A stretch of DNA of 29,408 bases from a virus: positions 1 through 29,408 of the IMG/VR virus record IMGVR_UViG_3300044814_000069; one strand, written 5' to 3'. The position numbers and the translations under genes were made by a program. The notes beneath the pieces are model-generated. The model did no database searches, was not told the DNA's origin, and saw nothing but the letters and a program-made list of their open reading frames with translations. Positions 11,279-29,408 of the stretch are shown one piece after another. Position 1 is the stretch's first letter. Each line of letters begins with the position of its first letter.

Positions 11279-11953
11279 ATGGCCTATTTCATAGAACTTT
11301 CTGGCCTGCGCTTCGAGCACCTGACTGTTCTCAGGATAGCAGAAGGCCGACGTATCCGGGGAGGACTCGTCTGGCTGTGCCGCTGCGACTGCGGTACCGA
11401 AAAGATAGTTTCCTCGAACGCGCTGCGCTCAGGGCATACGAAGTCATGCGGATGTAAGCAGCGAACGGGACGTCACGGCCAGTCAGCTACTCCCGAATAC
11501 TGGGCGTGGCTCTCAATGAAGCAGAGGTGCCTCAACTCGCGACACAAGGAGTTCCCCCGATACGGCGGCCGGGGCATCAGCGTATGCCAAAAATGGATCG
11601 ACTCGTTCGAGGCATTTTTCACGTACATCGGCCCGCGACCGGGTCCCGGGTACAGCCTGGACCGCGAAGACAACGACGGGAACTACGAACCCGGTAACGT
11701 TCGCTGGGCCACCGCTTTTGAGCAGACTCACAACCGGCGCGCTAACAAAAAGAAACTTCCCCGGTACGCCGAGTGTCATCCCGATCAGTTGCACGTCTCT
11801 CAGGGCTTGTGCAACGCGTGCTACCTGAGACAGTGGCGTGAGCAACGTAAATCCGACAAGCAGGCGCGCCGGGCGGACTGCCACCCCAACGAACTGCACC
11901 TTGCTAGAGGTCTGTGTAACAAGTGTTACAAAGAGTGGCGAAAGAGGGGGTAA
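11279..11953 (+). CDS. HNH homing-type endonuclease with tandem C-terminal zinc motifs
   Basis: 224 aa, transcribed against the head operon. Residues 32-60 form a zinc ribbon (WLCRCDCG...SCGC) followed by a YWAWLSMKQRCLN helix and the nuclease core RYGGRGISVCQKW...SLDREDNDGNYEPGNVRWAT (about 95-145), the LDRxDNxGxYxPxNxRWAT form of the HNH motif. The C-terminus has two copies of CHPxxLHxxxGLCNxCY (166-182 and 201-217), probably zinc-binding DNA-contact modules. Such free-standing genes cut a specific site in related phages lacking them and spread by repair. Inserted between protease and capsid genes without breaking either. Confidence 0.85.
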   Translation: MAYFIELSGLRFEHLTVLRIAEGRRIRGGLVWLCRCDCGTEKIVSSNALRSGHTKSCGCKQRTGRHGQSATPEYWAWLSMKQRCLNSRHKEFPRYGGRGISVCQKWIDSFEAFFTYIGPRPGPGYSLDREDNDGNYEPGNVRWATAFEQTHNRRANKKKLPRYAECHPDQLHVSQGLCNACYLRQWREQRKSDKQARRADCHPNELHLARGLCNKCYKEWRKRG

Positions 11954-14647: not shown

Positions 14648-15358
14648 ATGGGAAGAAGGACTCCAGACCTCACGGGCCAGGTTTTCGGGCGTCTGCGCGT
14701 ACTGACCCGCGACTGGACCGCACCTGGTCCGCACGCTAAGTGGCTGTGCTGGTGTGCACCCGAGCTGGATGGTTGCGGCACGATGACTTCGGTAGGCAGT
14801 GGCGCACTGCGATCGGGCATGACGCAGAGCTGCGGTTGCCTGCACAGTGAGCGCACAGCGGCATCGAACGCAACCCGAACCAGTCCGTCTGCCATCCCTG
14901 TGCACCGAAACGCCAAGCCCCGCACCCGCATAGCTAACCCAGCCACGTGGAGGAGCAGCTCCCTGTCGTACGGCAGCTGGGTGAATATGATCCGACGCTG
15001 CACGCACATCAATGACCCGCGTTACCCAGACTGGGGCGGACGCGGCATTACTGTCTGCAAACGCTGGCTGTCCTTTGACAATTTCCTGGCTGACATGGGT
15101 GAGCGTCCGCCCGGTAAGACGCTGGACCGGAAGGACAACAGTGGAAACTACGAGCCCGGGAACTGTCGCTGGGCCACCCCGCATGAACAGCTCGTCAACA
15201 GCCGATTGTTCAAGCTCGTTCCTGATGTCGTCGCTGAAATCAAACGACTGCGTGCCACCGGACTGTCGCTGAGCACCATCGGCACGCAACTGGGCTTGCA
15301 CCGAAGTACTGTGTCGCGGGCACTGAGCGGAAAAAGCCGAAGCAGGCGCGTCAGCTGA
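14648..15358 (+). CDS. HNH homing-type endonuclease with C-terminal helix-turn-helix
   Basis: 236 aa on the strand opposite to the portal gene. N-terminal GRLRVL plus a zinc ribbon (WLCWCAPELDGCG...SCGC, about 32-64), then SYGSWVNMIRRCTHINDPRY, GGRGITVCKRW and the nuclease core KTLDRKDNSGNYEPGNCRWAT (about 157-177). The C-terminus differs from the first HNH protein: IKRLRATGLSLSTIGTQLGL and HRSTVSRAL form a resolvase-like helix-turn-helix for DNA recognition. The two HNH genes share architecture and core but not their targeting tails. Its arrival may explain the damaged portal 5' end. Confidence 0.85.
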   Translation: MGRRTPDLTGQVFGRLRVLTRDWTAPGPHAKWLCWCAPELDGCGTMTSVGSGALRSGMTQSCGCLHSERTAASNATRTSPSAIPVHRNAKPRTRIANPATWRSSSLSYGSWVNMIRRCTHINDPRYPDWGGRGITVCKRWLSFDNFLADMGERPPGKTLDRKDNSGNYEPGNCRWATPHEQLVNSRLFKLVPDVVAEIKRLRATGLSLSTIGTQLGLHRSTVSRALSGKSRSRRVS

Positions 15359-15764: not shown

Positions 15765-15770
15765 ACTATA
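15765..15770 (-). promoter_or_regulatory. -10 box TATAGT, leaderless promoter for the small membrane gene
   Basis: TATAGT on the minus strand, 7 nt before the ATG at 15757, at the downstream edge of the C-rich repeat element. No -35 match. Confidence 0.45.
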
Positions 15771-15779
15771 CGGACTGGC

Positions 15780-16219
15780 TAGTCGGCGCGGGGCGGGTGG
15801 TTCTGACCTGGCATGGCCAGTCGGCATGGGTCGACGAGGGCAGGCATGGCCAGTCGGCGAGGTGAGGCTAGCGCTGAGGAGGGATGGTTAGTCGGCCTGG
15901 CTGGGACCGGTGCGGGACGTGCGGGAACGATGTGGGATGGGTCGGATTGTCGACGGGACTGGAGCGTAACGGTATGGACTGTCGGTGCGGCCAGAACCGG
16001 GTCGAGTCGGGTAGTCGGTGCGGCCAGAACCGGGTCGAGTCGGGTAGTCGGTGCGGCCAGAACCGTATCGGAGGGGAGCGGGTAGTCGGCGAGAGATGGC
16101 TGGGCAAGGGCCGGGATGAAACGTCGGCGCGGACAGGTAGGTGCAGTGAGGGTATGGCTGGTCAGTACGGTAAGGCTTGGTTAGCCACCCTGGTGTGGCG
16201 TCTTTCTGAGTATAGCTCA
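15780..16219 (-). repeat. Dispersed promoter-hairpin-CCGAC element, copy 1
   Basis: Read on the minus strand it begins at the terminase stop codon: TGAGCTATACT (16209-16219), then a conserved block at 16165-16201 containing GCCAC-ACCAGG-GTGGC (5-bp hairpin) and TAACCAAGCCTTACCGTAC. About 380 nt of C-rich, G-poor DNA follows, built from units starting CCGACTAnCC. The start and conserved block match copy 2 almost base for base. A stop codon interrupts the only shared frame after eight codons. Possibly a non-coding RNA with its own -10 box (TATACT), or a Rho-loading 3' region. No known class recognised. Confidence 0.7.
15986..16089 (-). repeat. 33-nt tandem repeats inside element copy 1
   Basis: Two identical 33-nt units (15986-16018 and 16019-16051) and a third, altered 38-nt unit (16052-16089). 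On the minus strand each unit starts CCGACTACCCG and ends GGTTCTGGCCGCA. Confidence 0.9.
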
Positions 16220-18877
16220 GCCAATTGACTTGCGGGGATCGTAGCTCCGTCGTTTTTTATTGAGCGCCCAACTGGCCAGGGTCGCCGCCACGATAGGCGT
16301 GATATCCGATTCAGAGTCTTTCCGTGACCAGGCCTGGCCGCCGTCGCCCACCACCCGGGTCTCCGCAGACGCGATAGCCGACCACAGCGCCGGCGCCTGC
16401 TCCTTACCCAGGTGGATAACCTGCCGGTTCCGAACTGCGGTGACGATCTGGCTAAATGCCTCGGCCTCGTCACCACTCATGGCGCGCACGACTTCGAGTC
16501 CCGCGTTCTCGGCGGCATCGGCAAGCCCGGCCGCCGGACCGTTCTTCGGAAAGCAGATCGCGATGGGCCGGTGCGCCCGGCGCAGCTCTACCAGCCGGGG
16601 GACCACCCAGCCAGTACCTTCCCGGCTGCAGCCCCGCGGAATCTCCAGGACAGTCTTGTACCCGCCGTCAGGTTCCCGCCGGTGCCACGCCGCACTGATC
16701 GTCGAGACCTTCATCTCCGGATCAGTGTCGACCGCGAACGCCAGCGGGCGCACGGCACCGCCCGGGTCCGGCATTGCGCAGCGCTCCCACGCCTCTTCGC
16801 TGATGACCGACCAGCTTTCCTCTTCTTCCGGCCAGTCACCCACCCCGAGGCGTTCCCGGTCGAACGCCACCATCGACATCGACGCGAATTCCTTCATGAC
16901 GTGCTCATAAGAGATACGCAGGTTGAACGCCGGATTAGCGCGCGCCCACGAACGCGGGTCGTCCCGGTCGTCATGGCGGTCACAGATAACGTACCTGTTG
17001 GTCTTCCGGCCAAGCACCTCGTCGCGCGGGCACAGGTCAGTGTGCGGGTCGATCGACCACTCGGCGCCCATCAGCGTCTGGTCATGCCTGAGGATGCGCC
17101 GCCGTACCATCGCCAGCTGCACCGAGTCGTGGTACCCGGCAGAGGCCGTGTAAATCATCTGCGGGTTAGCTACCGCGGACATAGTCGGCATCGACGCGCC
17201 GACCTGCTCGTCACTCAGGAACATGCTCTCGTCATATACGACGCAGTTCCCCACGTTGATCCAGTCCTCTAGCACGAAATTCTGGTGCTCAGGGACCACC
17301 GCGCAGAAAACCTCCTGCACCTGGCCCGTTTCCTCCGCGCTAACGACCGTCCAGCCGAGCCGGTCGTTGCGGGCACGTCCCTCGCTAGCCCGTTCGAAGC
17401 GATCGTAGTGCTCAGCCTTGAGAAAGAACTCCGGTCGCAACGTGGAGCTGACAAACTGGACCTTGTAGAGCGTAACCACCCCGTCACCGTAACCACTGCT
17501 CGTCTCCGACCGGGTAACCCCGTACGTACCGATGCCCAGGCGGGCGGCTAGTACCTGGACGAACTCCAGGTTCTCCCGGCTGGCCGAGGACAACTGGGCC
17601 AGGCCGCCTTCTGTGACGTTGCCATCCGCCGCGAAGTACCCTGCCAGCCAGCCGTACAGGTAGGGTACTGACTCATCCAACGGCGGCCGGTCCTTGAAGA
17701 AACGCGGCAACCCCGTGACCGCAACACCCGGAACATCATTCGGCGTGCGGATGCCCCGGTTCGGGCTAAGGCCGAAATACGGCAGCAGGAGAGCCTTAGT
17801 GCCCCATAGCTCTACCTTCGACCCCCACTGGTCCCGGCTGCCGTCCCCGAACGTGAGACCATGCGCGATACCGAACTGCGAAGGCCTCGAATGCCAGATC
17901 TTCGTCTTCGGCAACCGCCAGGCAAGCTTGTGACCCGCGCGAAGATCCCTCGTCAGGATCTCCCGCGACGGCTTCCCGGACCGGCTATCCCGTACGAGCC
18001 AGCGATGGCCCGCGGTAGCCTGGATCATCTTCACCTGCTTGTTACGGCGCAGCGTAACGTTCCAGAGGGCACGCTCGCCAAACGACCTGATCTCCGCCTT
18101 GTGCCAGGCACCCCCGTACCCCGAACCAGCGTTCACCAGAACATCCTGGTACGTACCTGCGGTCTCCGCGAGAGTCTTCAGCCCGTCCCTGGTCCAGTAC
18201 CTGGTATCCCCGGAAAAGCAATCGGCGGTGAACGAACGACCCGAACCGCGGGAACGGGCCAGGAAGCGGAGCCGGCCGCCAACATTGCGCCTGACGTGCT
18301 TGCCGCCGGGACCGAAGATCAGCGTGGGCGCCGACTTCAGCTCGATCGCCTCGTCACCATGCGAGGTCATGACTCTTTTCACCCGGCGGGACAGGCCGTC
18401 GTAGTTGGTGATCGTGTCCCGGACCCGGCGGAAGTGCTCGGCGGCAGCCTTGAACTCATGCGCGGTGTGGATGATCATCGACTCGCCGAACAGGAACAGG
18501 CCGCCCAGCTCGCGCGCCTCCAGGATGACGTTCTTGCCGTTCTGGCGGCTCACGATAAGCGCCGACTCGAACGCCGCCCACTTGCCGTCCGGGGTGATCC
18601 CCAGCATCTCGGTAAGGCTCCAGCGCTGCCACGGGTCCAGGTCGTACCCGTAGTGCGGCACCCACTGGTCGATCAGCTCCTCGGCCGCGTGGTTCCCGCA
18701 GCCGGACTTGTAGCCGGGCACGGCGCAGGAAATGCAGTCCAGTTGCTTGTCCCGGTGCCGCGGCGGAGCCGTCCAGAAGCGGGGAGACTGACTGCCCGTC
18801 GGCGGGTTCGGCAGCAGCGTGCCGTCCGGCAGGAAAACATCCGGAACGGCGACGACACGGTACGAGGCGGCTGTCAT
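16217..18877 (-). CDS. Large terminase subunit (TerL) interrupted by an intein
   Basis: 886 aa as translated; removing the intein (residues 220-544) leaves 561 aa, the usual TerL length. Extein features: an N-terminal CISCAVPGYKSGCGNHAAEE Cys cluster, DPWQRWSLTEMLG, Walker A-type SRQNGKN (110-116), HTAHEFKAAAEHFRRVR (adenine/motor region), and ADC-VVYDES (Walker B, 218-551 across the intein). The nuclease half has AFAVDTDPEMKVSTISAAW, with a metal-binding Asp, and the late SRKDSESDITPIVAA. TerL packages DNA by ATP hydrolysis and cuts genome ends. Its start overlaps the small upstream gene (ATGA). The stop codon is the first triplet of the dispersed element. Confidence 0.95.
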   Translation of the reverse strand: MTAASYRVVAVPDVFLPDGTLLPNPPTGSQSPRFWTAPPRHRDKQLDCISCAVPGYKSGCGNHAAEELIDQWVPHYGYDLDPWQRWSLTEMLGITPDGKWAAFESALIVSRQNGKNVILEARELGGLFLFGESMIIHTAHEFKAAAEHFRRVRDTITNYDGLSRRVKRVMTSHGDEAIELKSAPTLIFGPGGKHVRRNVGGRLRFLARSRGSGRSFTADCFSGDTRYWTRDGLKTLAETAGTYQDVLVNAGSGYGGAWHKAEIRSFGERALWNVTLRRNKQVKMIQATAGHRWLVRDSRSGKPSREILTRDLRAGHKLAWRLPKTKIWHSRPSQFGIAHGLTFGDGSRDQWGSKVELWGTKALLLPYFGLSPNRGIRTPNDVPGVAVTGLPRFFKDRPPLDESVPYLYGWLAGYFAADGNVTEGGLAQLSSASRENLEFVQVLAARLGIGTYGVTRSETSSGYGDGVVTLYKVQFVSSTLRPEFFLKAEHYDRFERASEGRARNDRLGWTVVSAEETGQVQEVFCAVVPEHQNFVLEDWINVGNCVVYDESMFLSDEQVGASMPTMSAVANPQMIYTASAGYHDSVQLAMVRRRILRHDQTLMGAEWSIDPHTDLCPRDEVLGRKTNRYVICDRHDDRDDPRSWARANPAFNLRISYEHVMKEFASMSMVAFDRERLGVGDWPEEEESWSVISEEAWERCAMPDPGGAVRPLAFAVDTDPEMKVSTISAAWHRREPDGGYKTVLEIPRGCSREGTGWVVPRLVELRRAHRPIAICFPKNGPAAGLADAAENAGLEVVRAMSGDEAEAFSQIVTAVRNRQVIHLGKEQAPALWSAIASAETRVVGDGGQAWSRKDSESDITPIVAATLASWALNKKRRSYDPRKSIG
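17246..18220 (-). other. Intein with LAGLIDADG endonuclease inside TerL
   Basis: 325 residues, Cys220 to Asn544 of the precursor. Block A is CFSGDTRYWTRDG, block B is QATAGHRWLV (the TxxH motif), and a LAGLIDADG-type motif reads LYGWLAGYFAADG. Block F is VPEHQNFVLED, and the end is VGN followed by Cys+1 of the C-extein. The usual penultimate His is a Gly. A second, degraded LAGLIDADG repeat is not obvious. The insertion point splits the Walker B strand, so TerL is inactive until splicing. In-frame length and intact splice residues suggest a functional element. Confidence 0.92.
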
Positions 18878-19630: not shown

Positions 19631-20320
19631 ATGGCCAAGGCCAAGCACTCCGTTTACATCTCACACCCCGACGACGTGGACGTAAGACCAATAGGCGCCG
19701 CACTAGCCCGGGACGTCGCCGAGCGCGAGCACTACATGCACCGCAAGCCGCAAGTCAACCACGCGTTCGGACTGTACGACGATGACAACCTGACCGGCAT
19801 CTGCGTCTTCGGCACGCCGGCCAGCCGCCACCTCCAGCAGGGCGCGTGCCCGTCCGATCCCGGCCTCGTCATCGAATTCAACCGGCTCTGGGTCAGCGAC
19901 GCGATGCCGCGGAACTCCGAGTCCTGGTTCGTATCCCGCTGCCTGAACGCGATCCCGCCGTACATCGTCGTCTCCTACGCCGACACGCTGCAAGGGCACA
20001 TGGGGTATGTCTACCGGGCGCTGAACTTCCGGTACGCGGGCTGGACCGACATGGAGCGGAAAACCGCACGGCTCGACTACCTGCCCGCTGACCCGCAAAC
20101 GCACACCCGGGACGCATTCCGCAACGGCTACGCCACGAAGGTGCGACGGCAGCCGAAGGTCAAGTACTGGACGGTGACCGGAAACCGGACCGACCGGAAG
20201 CGGCTCACGGAACTATGCGGGTGGCCATCACTGGACTGGAAGACGCTCCCGCCGGTGACCGAGCACCGGCAAGAACGCCTAGCCAGTCATGGGGATAGGA
20301 CTAGAAGTCGGGAAGCTTAA
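19631..20320 (+). CDS. Mom-like GNAT-fold DNA modification protein
   Basis: 229 aa from the first ATG. HYMHRKPQVNHAFGLYDDDN, LTGICVFGTPASRHLQQG, VIEFNRLWVSDAMPRNSESW and IVVSYADTLQGHMGYVYRAL (about residues 35-130) follow phage Mu Mom and its relatives. Those proteins are GNAT-fold enzymes that modify adenine in phage DNA and protect it from restriction. The same frame stays open upstream: 19538-19630 encodes a four-Cys ribbon (YCRGCG...ICRTCL) directly joined to this ATG, but no ATG/GTG/TTG precedes it, so the true start is doubtful. The C-terminus overlaps a convergent gene by 4 bp. Confidence 0.82.
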   Translation: MAKAKHSVYISHPDDVDVRPIGAALARDVAEREHYMHRKPQVNHAFGLYDDDNLTGICVFGTPASRHLQQGACPSDPGLVIEFNRLWVSDAMPRNSESWFVSRCLNAIPPYIVVSYADTLQGHMGYVYRALNFRYAGWTDMERKTARLDYLPADPQTHTRDAFRNGYATKVRRQPKVKYWTVTGNRTDRKRLTELCGWPSLDWKTLPPVTEHRQERLASHGDRTRSREA

Positions 20321-20547: not shown

Positions 20548-20808
20548 TCAATCTTCCAGCTTCATAACCTGAAGTGAGTAGTAGCGCGTGGTGTTCAGCT
20601 TGGTCCGGCCCAGGTCCAAAACGATATTCGCAGACTCGCCCCATTCATCCCCGGCCTTGTTCACCTGCCACGCGATCGAGTCACCGTTTTCCAGCTTCCG
20701 GTTCTCGTTGCACCAGGACATCGCGCTCGCCCGGGAGCCGTGAGCGGGGTCCATTAGGTTCGATTCACCCCACTCACCGTCTTTCAGCCAGACCAGCCAG
20801 ATGTCCAT
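20548..20808 (-). CDS. Small Trp-rich protein downstream of the Ro gene (86 aa)
   Basis: MDIWLVWLKDGEWGESNLMD opens a compact mixed alpha/beta protein with DSIAWQVNKAGDEWGESANI and YYSLQVMKLED. Its ATG overlaps the TROVE gene's TGA (TGATG), so it is translationally coupled to the Ro protein. No family recognised. Confidence 0.6.
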   Translation of the reverse strand: MDIWLVWLKDGEWGESNLMDPAHGSRASAMSWCNENRKLENGDSIAWQVNKAGDEWGESANIVLDLGRTKLNTTRYYSLQVMKLED

Positions 20809-22487
20809 CAGACATCGCCCCGGCTGAAGTCAGCCAGCAAGGTGGGCACCGCGGAGTCGAAGCCAGAAACGTCCATGCTGCCCGGGTCGTCCGGGTCGGC
20901 GATGGTGAACTCGGTCGGCGTCATCGCGGCCACCGCGAGCCGCGCGCCGATGCCCGTCTTCTGCCGGTAGGCCTCCAGCGCCTGGTGCGGGTGGATGTTC
21001 CCCGCCCACGTCTCGTTGTCCGTCACTGTGAGGAAAGTGTCGACCGGCACGTTGTTCTGCTGCGCCCAGATCATGGGCAGCGCGCAGTCGGTCCCGCCGA
21101 ACGGCAGGTGCGAAACCGTGCGCACCGCGTCATCCAGCCGCTGCCGGGAGCTGATGTTCAGCGGAGTGATCGACGTATCGTACCCAGAGCCCCACCGGGT
21201 CTGGTAGCCGTAGCCACCGCCAGCAGTGAAGCCGGTGACCAGCACCTGCGACTCGGTGGCCAGGGTAACCAGGGCAAGCGCGACGGAAGCCTCCCGGCAG
21301 CTCAGCGGCAGCCCGCCGGCCAGCGAGCCCATCGACCCGCTGACATCCAGGGCGACCATGGTGCGCTTGTTAGCAGGCTCGACCGCGCCGTACGCGGCGT
21401 AGAACGCGGCATCGAGCGCGTCGCTGATCTTCGGCACCGGCTGCCAGGACGAGTCCCCGCGTACCGAGCGCCCGGACGCGTACGTCTTAGCCGCGAGCAG
21501 CACCGCAACCGGGTGCACTCGCGCTCGCTTAAGCCGCTCCGGGTCGGCCAGCTGCGCGGCGACCATGTCAGTCAGCGTGCCCAGCTGGGTCAGCACGCCG
21601 AGGGTGGTCAGCCGGGGCAGCTGGCGCATCAGCGCAGTCTGCGGCAGGCCGTGCCGGATCAGCTCGGCCCACACGTCAGGCTGGGTCAGCGCGCTGTCCG
21701 GCAGCGCCTCCCAGGGCAGGCCCGGGTGCTCCGCGATCAGAGCGACGTACGCCGCGGCCTTCGCCTTGGTGCTGGCCGTGCTGCGATCGATCGCGAGCGC
21801 GGCCAGGTACGCGGTAGCCAGCAGAGGCAGGCTGTCGAAGAACGCCCGGCGGTTCCCGCAGGCGAACTCGAACAGTGCCCGCTGCTCCGGCGTGGCGTCC
21901 CGGGTCGTCCCGTTGAACACCGGGTGGGCGAGGCGGAGCAGGTCACGGTGCTTCCAGCCATCGCGCTGCCGGTACTTGACCATCTGGTAGGCAAGCTTGT
22001 CCGCGTCCTTGGCCAGGTACCAGTCGCTGACCGCGCGGCGCATCCCGCGCCCCCAGCCGCGAAACTGCTGCGAGTACCCGGCCCAGGTGTACAGGTGAGT
22101 GCCGGTGCGAGCCACGTACGGCAGCGCGCCGAATGACGCCTTCCGGCCCTCATCATTGCCCAGGCCAGCGGCGGCGGCAAGCGCGAACAGCGCGGCGTTG
22201 TTGCGCGGCGCACGACCCTGCACTGACACGTCCATCAGCCGACTGACTAGCGTCCGAGCATCCTGCCGCGCCCAGCCGAGCACCACCTCGGCGTTATTCT
22301 TGGTGATCTTCTGCTCGGTGGCGTAGTAAGTGCCGCCTTCAGTACCGAGGGTGAGGAACCGGTGCAGCCGGGCATCGCCGGTGACCTTGAACCCGTAGCC
22401 GCCGGCACTGTTCGGTACCTGGCGCGAGTCGGCCTGCTCGGACTGCGGCGTGACCCTGGTGCTGATCTTGCGCAGTGGATCAGGCAT
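20808..22487 (-). CDS. Ro60-like TROVE/vWA RNA-binding protein
   Basis: 559 aa, close to vertebrate Ro60 and bacterial Rsr. Residues about 40-360 form the TROVE ring of helical repeats, opening with RLHRFLTLGTEGGTYYATEQ and ending LRKRARVHPVAVLLAAKTYA-like helices. Residues about 375-555 form a von Willebrand A domain with an intact metal site: DVSGSM (381-386), GGTDCALP (464-471) and VTDNETW (488-494). Ro proteins are rings that hold the ends of misfolded RNAs and bind Y RNAs on the outer surface, which gate access or tether partners such as PNPase. The RNA cluster at 23368-23838 lies about 0.9 kb upstream on the same strand. It overlaps the upstream gene by 8 bp. Confidence 0.93.
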   Translation of the reverse strand: MPDPLRKISTRVTPQSEQADSRQVPNSAGGYGFKVTGDARLHRFLTLGTEGGTYYATEQKITKNNAEVVLGWARQDARTLVSRLMDVSVQGRAPRNNAALFALAAAAGLGNDEGRKASFGALPYVARTGTHLYTWAGYSQQFRGWGRGMRRAVSDWYLAKDADKLAYQMVKYRQRDGWKHRDLLRLAHPVFNGTTRDATPEQRALFEFACGNRRAFFDSLPLLATAYLAALAIDRSTASTKAKAAAYVALIAEHPGLPWEALPDSALTQPDVWAELIRHGLPQTALMRQLPRLTTLGVLTQLGTLTDMVAAQLADPERLKRARVHPVAVLLAAKTYASGRSVRGDSSWQPVPKISDALDAAFYAAYGAVEPANKRTMVALDVSGSMGSLAGGLPLSCREASVALALVTLATESQVLVTGFTAGGGYGYQTRWGSGYDTSITPLNISSRQRLDDAVRTVSHLPFGGTDCALPMIWAQQNNVPVDTFLTVTDNETWAGNIHPHQALEAYRQKTGIGARLAVAAMTPTEFTIADPDDPGSMDVSGFDSAVPTLLADFSRGDV

Positions 22488-23204: not shown

Positions 23205-23303
23205 TTAAAACCAGGAAAGCCCGCGGACGTGTAAGCGGCTGCCGGGTTGTTTCTTTGCATGAAGGGTAACCGACTGCCATCCGGCCCGCGGGCCGTCCTG
23301 CAT
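23205..23303 (-). CDS. Possible 32-residue basic peptide
   Basis: ATG 23303, stop 8 bp before the next gene's start, with GGGGAG about 10 nt upstream. MQDGPRAGWQSVTLHAKKQP then GSRLHVRGLSWF. Its codons overlap a perfect 14-bp palindrome (CGGCCCGCGGGCCG). Weak call; the region could simply be leader sequence. Confidence 0.25.
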   Translation of the reverse strand: MQDGPRAGWQSVTLHAKKQPGSRLHVRGLSWF

Positions 23304-23545: not shown

Positions 23546-23685
23546 AGCGAACGGGCATGTGAGTGAAAACCGGGTTTTACGCGCTCTAGCCGCTGAGCTA
23601 CACCAGGGGTTTCCCTGGTGACAGGATTCGAACCTGCGACCTCGTCCTCCAGATGGATAACCGATTCTCTTCCGGCCCGTTCGCT
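23546..23685 (-). ncRNA. Y-RNA-like RNA 2 (YrlA type) with permuted tRNA module
   Basis: 140 nt. Perfect 11-bp closing stem (AGCGAACGGGC with GCCCGTTCGCT). Conserved 5' motif GGGCCGGAAGAGAATCGG then TTATC (23656-23678) can pair its AATCGGTT with AACCCGGTT on the 3' side, leaving one bulged C. The distal part is a tRNA cut open and re-ordered: T arm GCAGG-TTCGAAT-CCTGT, acceptor CACCAGGG closed by AAAC to CCCTGGTG (8 pairs), TA, then D arm GCTC-AGCGGCTA-GAGC. This T arm, closed acceptor, D arm order is that of YrlA tRNA mimics. Not a translatable tRNA. Confidence 0.87.
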
Positions 23686-23701
23686 GTGCAGTTGTCGTTG
23701 A

Positions 23702-23838
23702 GGGTGACGGACATGTGTATGAAAACCGGGTTTTAAGTGCTCTACCGTTGAGCTACACCCTGTACCGCCGGGTGACGGGAGTCGAACCCGCTACCACTCT
23801 CTTATCAGGAGAACCGATTCTCTTCCGGCCCGTCACCC
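23702..23838 (-). ncRNA. Y-RNA-like RNA 1 (YrlA type) with a full permuted tRNA-Ile-like module
   Basis: 137 nt, first of the cluster. Closing stem GGGTGACGGGC with GTCCGTCACCC (11 pairs, one G-U). Shared 5' motif at 23809-23831 and 3' motif AACCCGGTTTTCA...CATGTCCG. Distal module in order: an anticodon-like arm TTCTC-CTGATAA-GAGAG (the loop would place GAU as anticodon), a 5-nt variable loop, T arm GCGGG-TTCGACT-CCCGT, acceptor CACCC closed by a 9-nt loop to GGGTG, TA, and D arm GCTC-AACGGTA-GAGC. Every tRNA element is present but permuted, with the Y stem lying between D arm and anticodon arm. A promoter lies directly upstream. Confidence 0.87.
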
Positions 23839-23841
23839 GAG

Positions 23842-26935: not shown

Positions 26936-27312
26936 GCTATACTGTAAAGGACTTACCTACGCCACATCAGGGTGGCTAACCAGGCCTTGCCGTACCACGC
27001 CTTACTGACGTACTCCACCGCTTCGTGCCCTCCCAATCCGTGCCGACTACCCGTCCCCAGCCGGACCGCCCCGGCCCTGGCCGGATCGACTTTCCACGTC
27101 TCCCCTCACCAGACCGTACCGACTTCCCACGTCTCCCCTCACCAGACCGTACCGACTTCCCACCTCGCCCCCTCCCCACCCGAACCGACCCGACAAGCCC
27201 TCCCGAACCGAGCCCGCCCGCCCCCATACCGACTACCTAGCCCCAGCCGAGTCAGCCCGCTCCGAACCGACAATCCAGTCCATCCCCCGCCACACCGACA
27301 AGCCACGCGAAA
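26933..27312 (+). repeat. Dispersed promoter-hairpin-CCGAC element, copy 2
   Basis: Begins at the protease stop with TGAGCTATACT, identical to copy 1. Conserved block at 26959-26995 has GCCAC-ATCAGG-GTGGC and TAACCAGGCCTTGCCGTAC. Then about 310 nt of C-rich, G-poor sequence with units beginning CCGACTACC, CCGACTTCC and CCGACAAnCC, ending against a strong terminator. Compared with copy 1, the block differs at only three bases (one in the hairpin loop). A proline-rich frame spans the tail, but the shared block is not in a conserved frame between copies. Same RNA-like architecture as copy 1; no known class recognised. Confidence 0.72.
27086..27151 (+). repeat. 33-nt tandem repeats inside element copy 2
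   Basis: Two 33-nt units (27086-27118 and 27119-27151) differing at two bases, each running CCGACTTCCCACGTC to AGACCGTA. A third unit starts at 27152 and then diverges. One unit holds 17 C and 4 G. Confidence 0.85.
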
Positions 27313-27348
27313 GAGGGCCGATCACCAGTCACTTGGTGATCGGCCCTC
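27313..27348 (+). terminator. Strong hairpin, probable bidirectional terminator
   Basis: A perfect 15-bp stem, GAGGGCCGATCACCA with TGGTGATCGGCCCTC, across the loop GTCACT. It sits between element copy 2 and the end of the convergent leftward operon. Only a weak T tract (CTTGCTT) follows on the plus strand. Confidence 0.7.
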
Positions 27349-27538: not shown

Positions 27539-28318
27539 TTACTCCTCCGTAACCTCCGCCCGGTAGTCTTCGGGCCGGTACATGCCAGGGGCATCGGCCT
27601 TCGGCGGGACCTGGTCCCACTTGGTAACCTGGTAGCGGCCGTACTCCTGCGACCGGCTGGCGCCGACGCCTTGCATCTGGCCGGTCAGCCAGATCATCGC
27701 CCAGTCCCGCTCCCGCATCTCGAAGTCGGCCTTGATGGTGAACGGGACGACCGCGTCTCGTACGTACTGCTCATACGAAATGCTGTCACCGCGGTGAGTG
27801 TGCACGAACTTCTGGGTGGTCCCGTCGTGGTCCATCACCGGGGAGCCGTCCGCGCGGAAGATAGGCAGGTACTCCTCAACGATGAAGAAGTGCTCCGGGA
27901 ACCAGCCCTTGATCTGCTTCTTGAAGCTGGCGTTGTCGGGGTTGCCCCACTTGCCGGTCGCCAGCTTCCCGGAGTTAGCCGCGACCATGACGGCTTCCTT
28001 CATCGCCGCCTTCAGCTGACGGCCCTCGATGAGCAGCTGCCCGGTGACCGGCGGGGTGCGCTTGAAGCCGTTGACCCCGACCATCTTCGTCGACGCCTTC
28101 TCGATGGCCTCTTCCTCATCCAGGCCCAGCTCGGCCATCGTATCCGCGATAACCTGCTGGATTTCCGCGTCACTGCGCACGTCGCGCAGCTTCGTCTTGA
28201 TCCAGCTTTCCACGACATTCGGGTCTTGCGGGATGCCGCCGGCCAGGATGCCGACTTTCAGCTCCGCCTCGTACCAGAACGGCCAGGCCTCGTTGCTGTA
28301 CTTCTCGAATGGTCCCAT
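27539..28318 (-). CDS. Unrecognised alpha/beta phage protein (259 aa)
   Basis: Starts MGPFEKYSNEAWPFWYEAEL, with two helical parts (SDAEIQQVIADTMAELGLDE, QLLIEGRQLKAAMKEAVMVA), a beta-rich middle (FFIVEEYLPIFRADGSPVMD) and a conserved-looking end: WAMIWLTGQMQGVGASRSQE then YGRYQVTKWDQV. The glycine and RSQ-YGR pattern recurs in phage proteins of unknown role. It is 2 bp from the upstream gene. Not a recognised enzyme; do not infer function. Confidence 0.65.
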   Translation of the reverse strand: MGPFEKYSNEAWPFWYEAELKVGILAGGIPQDPNVVESWIKTKLRDVRSDAEIQQVIADTMAELGLDEEEAIEKASTKMVGVNGFKRTPPVTGQLLIEGRQLKAAMKEAVMVAANSGKLATGKWGNPDNASFKKQIKGWFPEHFFIVEEYLPIFRADGSPVMDHDGTTQKFVHTHRGDSISYEQYVRDAVVPFTIKADFEMRERDWAMIWLTGQMQGVGASRSQEYGRYQVTKWDQVPPKADAPGMYRPEDYRAEVTEE

Positions 28319-28320
28319 GA

Positions 28321-28965
28321 CTACTTCCTGCCTCCTGTTGTGCTGTCCGCTTGCCGGACGAACATCTTCTCCAGCTGCTCGGGGGTGTAAAGGTCCCCAA
28401 CGACTGTGCCATCCCCCTGCGCGGCCACCCGCTTGCGTACTGCCTCGTAGATCCGGGCGTAGAACGTATTGTCCTGCGCAGCCTGCCGGTACCGGTCCCG
28501 GACCTGCTCTACCTGCTTCGCGGTCAGGTCGCCGAGCGGCTTCCGGACCAGCAGCGGCCCCTCGGTGACGGAATGATAACGGTAGAATTCCCGGCCCTGG
28601 TCCGCTCCTTCCTCCAGCGCGTTCTCCATCCCGGCGGCGAACTTGGCGAAGCGCGCTCGCTGCTCCTCACGCGGGCGCCGGGCACCGCGGCTGAGCGTCA
28701 CGGAGTACACGTAGTCACGCAGAACCTGACGGCCGCGAGCGCGAAGCCAGCCGACCAGCAGGTCCGGGTCACTTATCTCCCACCGGGAAATCAGCTCGTC
28801 GGCCGCCTGTGCCGAGATAACGGCGTCGTGCTCGTCGAGGTAGTCATTAACCTCGTCGCGAACTTCACTGAGATAGTCGCGGTCAGCGGCAACTGGCACG
28901 GGTGCCGGAGCTGCTGCCAGCGGCGGATCGACTGGTGTCCGGAACCGGGGTGTTACCGCTGCCAT
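28321..28965 (-). CDS. Unrecognised helical protein, first gene of a three-gene operon (214 aa)
   Basis: ATG 28965 is chosen because GAGGAGG lies 5 nt upstream and a promoter lies within 60 bp; the longer upstream frame would start above that promoter. A Pro/Ala-rich N-terminus (VDPPLAAAPAPVPVAA) precedes helices LSEVRDEVNDYLDEHDAVIS, ELISRWEISDPDLLVGWL, QVLRDYVYSVTLSRGARRPR and VEQVRDRYRQAAQDNTFY. No catalytic motif or family recognised. Confidence 0.65.
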   Translation of the reverse strand: MAAVTPRFRTPVDPPLAAAPAPVPVAADRDYLSEVRDEVNDYLDEHDAVISAQAADELISRWEISDPDLLVGWLRARGRQVLRDYVYSVTLSRGARRPREEQRARFAKFAAGMENALEEGADQGREFYRYHSVTEGPLLVRKPLGDLTAKQVEQVRDRYRQAAQDNTFYARIYEAVRKRVAAQGDGTVVGDLYTPEQLEKMFVRQADSTTGGRK

Positions 28966-28992
28966 CTTGTCCTCCTCGGGCTGATGACTGAT

Positions 28993-29021
28993 ACTATAAC
29001 AGACACTTATGGGTGCGTCAA
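28993..29021 (-). promoter_or_regulatory. Consensus-like sigma-70 promoter
   Basis: Minus strand TTGACG (29016-29021), 17-nt spacer, TATAGT (28993-28998), about 30 bp before the ATG at 28965. Best -35/-10 pair in the window together with the Y-RNA promoter. Confidence 0.75.
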
Positions 29022-29044
29022 CTGTTGCCTCGTGGTTTGCGCTC

Positions 29045-29408
29045 TTGGAAAGGAACAGTATCATGGCGTATAGAACTTCGGTTCCACGGACGCCACATCA
29101 GGGTGGCTACGCAAACCAGGCCTTACCAGAGTTGACGAGCCTATTCCATCCGAGCCGTCCCTCGCCGACGACCCCCGGCGCCCCTGCCCGGCCCTCCGCG
29201 GCCCAGCCCTTCCCCACCGACTACCCCCGCCCCCTCAGCACCGCACCGCCCGAACCATACCGACGAGCCGACCCTGGTCCTCCCGCGCCGAGCCCTTCCC
29301 GCCCTCGCCGACGAGCCATTCCAGTCCTATCCGGACCGGGCCCGCCCGACTACCCCCCCCGCCCCCCCCCCCCCCCGAACCAGCCCCCGGGCCCCGCCCC
29401 CCCCGCAC
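29045..29408 (+). repeat. Dispersed promoter-hairpin-CCGAC element, copy 3 (runs off the window)
   Basis: TTGGAA (29045-29050), 18-nt spacer and TATAGA (29069-29074) precede the conserved block: GCCAC-ATCAGG-GTGGC at 29092-29107, then TA, an extra CGCAA, and ACCAGGCCTTACC. The tail is C-rich with CCGACGACC, CCGACTACCC and CCGACGAGCC starts. Here an ATG at 29063 opens a frame with no stop to the window end (about 115 codons, proline-rich), so coding cannot be excluded for this copy. The last 60 bases are nearly pure C and may be unreliable. Confidence 0.6.

Follow-up and report, generated by a model that had tools for sequence, protein, structure and literature searches.

What purpose is served by the three G-poor, C-rich tails that occur in a 29.4 kb phage contig from IMG/VR? 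A sequence-only reading of the window (the whole stretch of DNA analysed here, 29,408 nucleotides) had interpreted these tails as Rho-dependent terminators or Rho-titrating decoys, with a DNA-binding iteron array as an alternative. Our analysis argues instead that they are very probably guide-RNA arrays of a phage-encoded, RNA-guided system of the VIPR type that acts with a RAMP partner protein. As described in a preprint, VIPR consists of a phage RAMP (Vipr), an accessory gene (vap) and a vrRNA built of YNNGG pentamers (PMC13142463, bioRxiv 2026.04.26.720920). The three candidate arrays are:

15769..16180, minus strand: array 1, after TerL; YC-NN-S pentamers with about 9-11 CCGACNNN punctuation units (putative guides), two of them exact 33-nt units
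26980..27307, plus strand: array 2, after the peptidase ORF; three 33-nt units
29116..29378, plus strand: array 3, which reaches the contig end and is probably cut off by it

The depletion of G in the tails is real, and they are more ordered than had been described. The C-over-G skew, whose calculation had been proposed as a check, reaches 0.39, 0.58 and 0.52 on the C-rich strand of copies 1, 2 and 3, whereas the rest of the window ranges from about 0 to 0.27. As had been noted, copies 1 and 2 use different 33-nt sequences of identical unit length, with 2.6 exact copies of one unit at 15981-16065 and, at 27087-27171, a unit repeated with 94% matching whose sequence is unlike that of copy 1. 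Copy 3 is indeed looser, its GAC-to-GAC spacings being 52, 43 and 48. A search of Rfam gave no match.

Several other features of the window deserve mention in their own right. TerL (16217-18877, minus strand) carries an in-frame intein with a LAGLIDADG_3 domain, and two ORFs on the plus strand (11279-11953 and 14648-15358), which have a stretch of 81 nt in common at 74%, look by eye like homing endonucleases of the HNH/AP2 type. A Mom-like DNA modification protein (Pfam 2.7e-30) is encoded at 19631-20320 on the plus strand. A gene at 20808-22487 on the minus strand encodes a protein with Ro60/TROVE and vWA domains (Pfam 8e-57 and 1.2e-41) and resembles the Ro genes of large mycobacteriophages. 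A minus-strand tRNA-Ile (GAT) is contained in a 156-nt tandem duplication at 23551-23840, and additional 26-nt copies occur at 23264 and 23498; this region could hold either duplicated tRNAs or Y RNAs that resemble tRNAs and lie close to the Ro gene.

The true period of the arrays is 5 nt, which was overlooked in the sequence-only reading. CC pairs separated by a lag of 5 are enriched over dinucleotide shuffles in the three window copies (z = 4.3, 4.5 and 3.6) and in ten relatives (z = 2.5 to 11.2), and all 13 arrays first tested have period 5. A semi-Markov parse resolves the arrays into two kinds of word, namely the pentamer YC-N-N-S and the octamer CCGACNNN. Among 8,564 pentamers from 94 unique arrays, position 1 is a pyrimidine in 90% (C in 77%, T in 13%), position 2 is C in 98%, positions 3 and 4 vary freely, and C or G occupies position 5 in 69%. 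The pentamers consist of a fixed S-Y-C triplet and a variable NN pair, and their consensus is not GGY. Punctuation is provided by CCGAC. GAC-to-GAC distances in the first 13 arrays almost all follow 8+5k (33, 38, 43, 48); in the larger array set 58% fit this rule, and much of the remainder is one base longer.

This grammar explains the equal unit length of copies 1 and 2, since a 33-nt unit is one CCGACNNN (8) plus five pentamers (25) and can therefore recur with different sequences in the absence of duplication. The earlier proposal that equal period with different sequence reflects selection for spacing or for C-richness, and not recent duplication, thus stands with respect to spacing only. 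About 29% of NN positions are G (0.31 and 0.26), which is close to the base composition of the genome and shows that G is not avoided as such; its scarcity stems from the fixed YC, which takes up two positions in each pentamer. Duplication has also occurred, because a near-identical phage (L011/L019) lacks one of the units, and we conclude that the exact 33-nt repeats inside each copy are recent duplications. Two of the three 33-nt units of array 2 differ at non-coding positions only and have the NN string TT AC TC TC AG GT in common. When related arrays of different phages are compared, 28 changes fall at position 5 (S), and 7 and 10 at the NN positions. Two readings of the repeat were rejected on these grounds of grammar. 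A TRAP-like or Rho-hexamer arrangement with six CC per 33 nt does not accommodate unit lengths of 8+5k with variable k, and for a G-quadruplex on the opposite strand the first two letters should be equivalent, whereas position 1 allows T (10-13%) and position 2 does not.

Similar arrays occur outside the window, with about 90 further examples in other phages. Searching with the head pattern described below led to four related phages, and searching with the unit pattern revealed arrays in some 30 further contigs of up to 158 kb; a contig scan with the hairpin alone used too loose a pattern. The largest arrays extend to 61 punctuation marks and 1.9 kb. Relatives carry arrays at the same position after TerL, with guides that are quite different.

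Conservation of neighboring genes provides a second line of evidence. Two genes of the window are of particular importance:

27539..28318, minus strand: gene Y, a RAMP (Csm3/Cas7-fold) by homology and model, Vipr-like, and by linkage the conserved partner of the array
28321..29064, minus strand: gene X, a conserved accessory protein beside Y (neighbor conservation) and a candidate vap

Arrays were repeatedly seen beside Y, and we then used Y alone as the query to fetch loci from viral contigs. An array is present in 58 of the 65 usable loci that have a Y homologue, where it lies directly upstream in 33 (5-85 nt before Y), directly downstream in 18, on both sides in 3 and elsewhere in 4; most arrays are within 85 nt of Y and on the same strand. 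At least three of the seven array-less loci are cut by contig ends, and another (L251) has an array below threshold. In a relative of low GC content (L243, 51% GC), Y is present but no array could be detected, and the scaffold letters of this relative may be different. Control loci had arrays in 0 of 174 cases (0/120 bacterial, 0/39 viral with chance hairpins and 0/15 from more distant TerL relatives).

The profile matches and the predicted structure both identify Y as a RAMP protein. Its matches among PADLOC profiles are to Csm4, Csm3 and Cas6, the best at 7e-6 (Csm4), and its AlphaFold model (pLDDT 88, pTM 0.82) finds Csm3/Cas7 proteins of type III-A and type VII complexes as the top structures in the PDB, with a VIA Z of 12.3 to Csm3 over 172 residues (rmsd 4.7). 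Similarity between the Y profile and Vipr of SUSP1 is weak and involves the C-terminal G-loop (3.5e-5 in a single-sequence search; hhalign E 0.0076, probability 5%). X, the sole neighbor of Y that is conserved in many loci, occurs beside it in 46 of 66 loci by profile and in 32 loci by blast clustering. Its model is mostly helical and gave no known fold in a PDB search. No cas1, cas10 or other cas gene is among the conserved neighbors of Y in the loci examined. Among isolated phages, Y was found in Microcystis phage Mae-JY09 (L296, PP395641) only, where X, Y and an array occur together. A search of 395 Actinomycetes genomes, conducted without a positive control, found no Y homologue. As a separate observation, the stretch of Mae-JY09 that was read has 72% GC, which, judged by host GC, is high for a Microcystis phage.

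All three copies have in common a head, ACGCCAC(A/T)(C/T)CAGGGTGGCTA (ACGCCACAYCAGGGTGGCTA), and the flanking elements in the window are:

16182..16201, minus strand: head 1, ACGCCACACCAGGGTGGCTA, with a GCCAC/GTGGC hairpin (shared-head comparison); the probable 5' end of the array RNA
16209..16214, minus strand: TATACT, a -10-like hexamer 7 nt before head 1
26959..26978, plus strand: head 2, ACGCCACATCAGGGTGGCTA (shared-head comparison)
29090..29109, plus strand: head 3, ACGCCACATCAGGGTGGCTA (shared-head comparison)
27314..27347, plus strand: strong inverted repeat agggccgatcacc..ggtgatcggccct directly 3' of array 2, a probable intrinsic terminator

In many relatives, and in many copies of the window's clade, a TANNNT hexamer precedes the head by 6-8 nt, placed as a -10 box would be, and the array of a further phage (L174) ends in the same inverted-repeat arrangement as array 2. 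The C-rich strand is the coding strand of X and Y in most phages; in the window, arrays 2 and 3 lie instead on the strand opposite to that of X and Y. Based upon the general co-orientation with X and Y, the TANNNT hexamers before the heads and the inverted-repeat terminators after two arrays, we infer that the RNA most likely corresponds to the C-rich strand. The possibility that the head encodes a short conserved peptide (VANQALPY) was rejected, as a stop comes directly in copy 1 and in two other phages (L004, L008).

These data bear on the proposal that the arrays are iteron-like and bound as DNA, for instance in replication, partition or packaging. Such a function would be compatible with direct repeats in one orientation and with the placement of one copy next to TerL, but it accounts neither for the strand bias and the promoter-like hexamers before the heads nor for the co-orientation of arrays with X and Y in nearly all phages. 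Moreover, the position of the array varies among phages, and a DNA-level array predicts neither the linkage to a RAMP gene nor the gapped target matches presented below. We therefore consider an iteron array to be extremely improbable.

Guides were cut at GAC, and 12 reading rules were applied to search for their variable bases in all the sequences that had been fetched. Only the rule that reads NN at positions 3-4 and then skips 1 nt was clearly above shuffles in the first test. Its total-match statistic (305 versus about 175 runs) was inflated by two guides that match many homologues, and we therefore relied on counts of distinct guides and on a test against Y genes. In this stricter test, guides were compared with X and Y genes alongside 25 shuffles and eleven other reading rules. 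The guide CA GG TT GG CG TA GA matches the Y codons Q-G-F-G-R-Y-E at 14 of 14 bases in 15 phages, and the guide TT AG CA CC TC GC AC TT matches, in antisense, the Y codons K-V-A-E-G-W-L-K at 16 of 16 bases in 8 phages. For both guides the skipped base is always the wobble base, and the target comprises the most conserved codons of the rivals' RAMP gene. None of the 25 shuffles gave a perfect match to an X or Y gene, and no more than a single match, confined to one gene, arose under the eleven other rules. A contiguous NNN code, NN at other positions, and skips of 0, 2 or 3 were rejected, their matches being at shuffle level. The stretch matched by each of three guides coincides exactly with one GAC-delimited unit.

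Distinct guides with a perfect match of at least 14 bases number 15, a modest excess over the 5-10 seen with shuffles in a 9.9 Mb set of phage and bacterial sequences; at 16 bases or more there are 3, versus 0-2. This modest excess suggests that most natural targets lie outside the 9.9 Mb set. The few guides decoded so far have the Y genes of rival phages as their predicted targets. One guide (L238, 6704-6736) matches at 14 of 14 bases the Y gene of its own phage as well as those of 14 other phages; the match to its own gene may reflect self-regulation or self-targeting.

Among the window's own guides there is no certain target in the sequences searched, and a single match is suggestive. The first guide of array 3 (29165..29216, plus strand) has the NN string GA CC GC TG GG TC GG AG TT, which spells codons for D-P-A-C-G-S-G-S-F with the wobble base skipped; we take this peptide to be motif I of N6-adenine DNA methyltransferases. 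Two exact matches occur in viral contigs, one of which (L299) is in frame in an ORF of this methyltransferase type, and in Actinomycetes genomes, with one mismatch allowed, 12 of 297 match, several of them as DPACGSGNF, compared with 3 of 297 for the reversed pattern. It is possible that this guide is aimed at a methyltransferase of the host or of a rival, a suggestive match noticed post hoc. A window guide with 11 pairs had no match in the target searches.

Could the arrays nevertheless be an RNA scaffold, in which the RAMP coats the RNA as a decoy or structural filament and the NN pairs go unread? The fixed YC step, the RAMP partner and the small number of targets found would all be expected of a scaffold. 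However, perfect, wobble-skipping matches to rival Y genes exist for two guides and for 0 of 25 shuffles, and NN is conserved relative to S between related arrays; a scaffold alone thus appears very improbable. Slightly less probable still is that this C-rich RNA strongly terminates transcription through Rho or titrates Rho as a decoy, as had been proposed. YC dinucleotides at fixed steps and a C-over-G skew of up to 0.58 on the presumed transcribed strand are favorable to Rho, but they leave unexplained the RAMP linkage at 58 of 65 loci, the CCGAC punctuation, the gapped, codon-register matches to Y genes of rivals and the conservation of NN over S between related arrays. In addition, the two arrays with an inverted-repeat terminator reach it only after hundreds of nucleotides. 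We abandoned the Rho reading because of the near-genomic composition of the NN positions, the RAMP linkage and the decoding. Incidental loading of Rho on array RNA may take place, as its C-over-G composition fits a rut site.

We therefore favor a guide-array function, and most likely the phage-borne array and its CRISPR-like protein recognize and silence genes of rival phages. The C-rich strand would be transcribed from its own promoters in the window and elsewhere within an X-array-Y operon. GAC would mark guide borders, giving guides of about 6-9 pentamers cut by CCGAC, and Y protomers would coat the RNA at one per pentamer, gripping YC and S and presenting NN. By analogy with VIPR, the complex of Y and RNA would bind matching double-stranded DNA and thereby repress competing phages or satellites (PMC13142463). 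Wobble skipping would allow a single guide to reach many diverged homologues.

Several implications follow. The 1-nt skip code of VIPR has been recovered independently, from sequence alone and in unrelated phages, and the reading rule is retained when the letters of the scaffold change (SYC in place of GGY). With large multi-guide arrays that carry built-in punctuation, the borders of guides and their natural targets can be computed in bulk. That the RAMP gene of the rivals is itself targeted, at conserved codons and with the wobble base skipped, points to use by phage against phage. Finally, a compact RAMP with a many-guide array could serve as a multiplex tool for DNA recognition.

How does this system compare with those already known? 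Rho utilization (rut) sites are likewise C-rich RNAs with many YC dinucleotides, but the arrays differ from them in keeping strictly to a 5-nt register, in being punctuated by CCGAC, in their linkage to a RAMP gene and in having targets that can be decoded. TIGR-Tas guides have a box C/D architecture, and assignment to that class was rejected, as Y folds as a RAMP and the code differs. Tandem guide arrays borne by phages and served by one partner protein are a feature in common, and the description of TIGR-Tas presents the Tas protein as a separate family, found via the guide-RNA-interaction domain of Cas9 (PMC12045711). Type III CRISPR-Cas systems resemble the arrays and Y in the RAMP fold (VIA Z 12.3 to Csm3), a regular nucleotide step and a ladder of unit lengths. 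Unlike type III systems, however, the arrays have neither palindromic repeats nor unique spacers, no cas gene set is near Y, the step is 5 nt rather than 6, and only two of five bases are read. Array grammar and conserved neighbors therefore place them outside CRISPR-Cas type III.

The closest resemblance is to VIPR, and there is strong in silico support that the system works in the same way. The preprint on VIPR reports a code, first described in 2026, in which the NN pairs are matched to DNA with a gap of one base, in most cases that at the wobble position, and demonstrates experimentally both DNA binding and repression of competing phages or satellites; the guides comprise 9-16 pentamers and target other VIPRs, and the systems are divided into seven types (PMC13142463). 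Common to both systems are a phage RAMP with one accessory gene and no CRISPR array (X being the candidate vap by position), a non-coding RNA whose pentamers combine a fixed triplet with a variable NN, a 1-nt skip at the codon wobble position, and guides against VIPR-type genes (Y) of other phages; the SUSP1 locus has the same layout. By contrast, the scaffold here is C-based (SYC/NN versus GGY/NN), and, relative to the VIPR guides in the text cited, the guides are about 6-9 pentamers long, separated by CCGAC and assembled into single arrays that can reach about 60 guides and a length of 1.9 kb. The window's clade has a conserved hairpin on the 5' side of the array and not a 3' tail, and the sequence similarity of Y to Vipr is weak. 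VIPR type II (the SUSP1 clade, with YNNGG repeats and a structured 3' tail) is excluded by the SYC/NN scaffold and by the hairpin before the array. We tentatively suggest, at somewhat less than even likelihood, that these arrays represent a VIPR lineage outside the published types, with an SYC/NN code, CCGAC punctuation and dozens of guides per long RNA, which would be widespread in large environmental phages and would disarm the RAMP genes, and possibly the DNA methyltransferases, of rivals.
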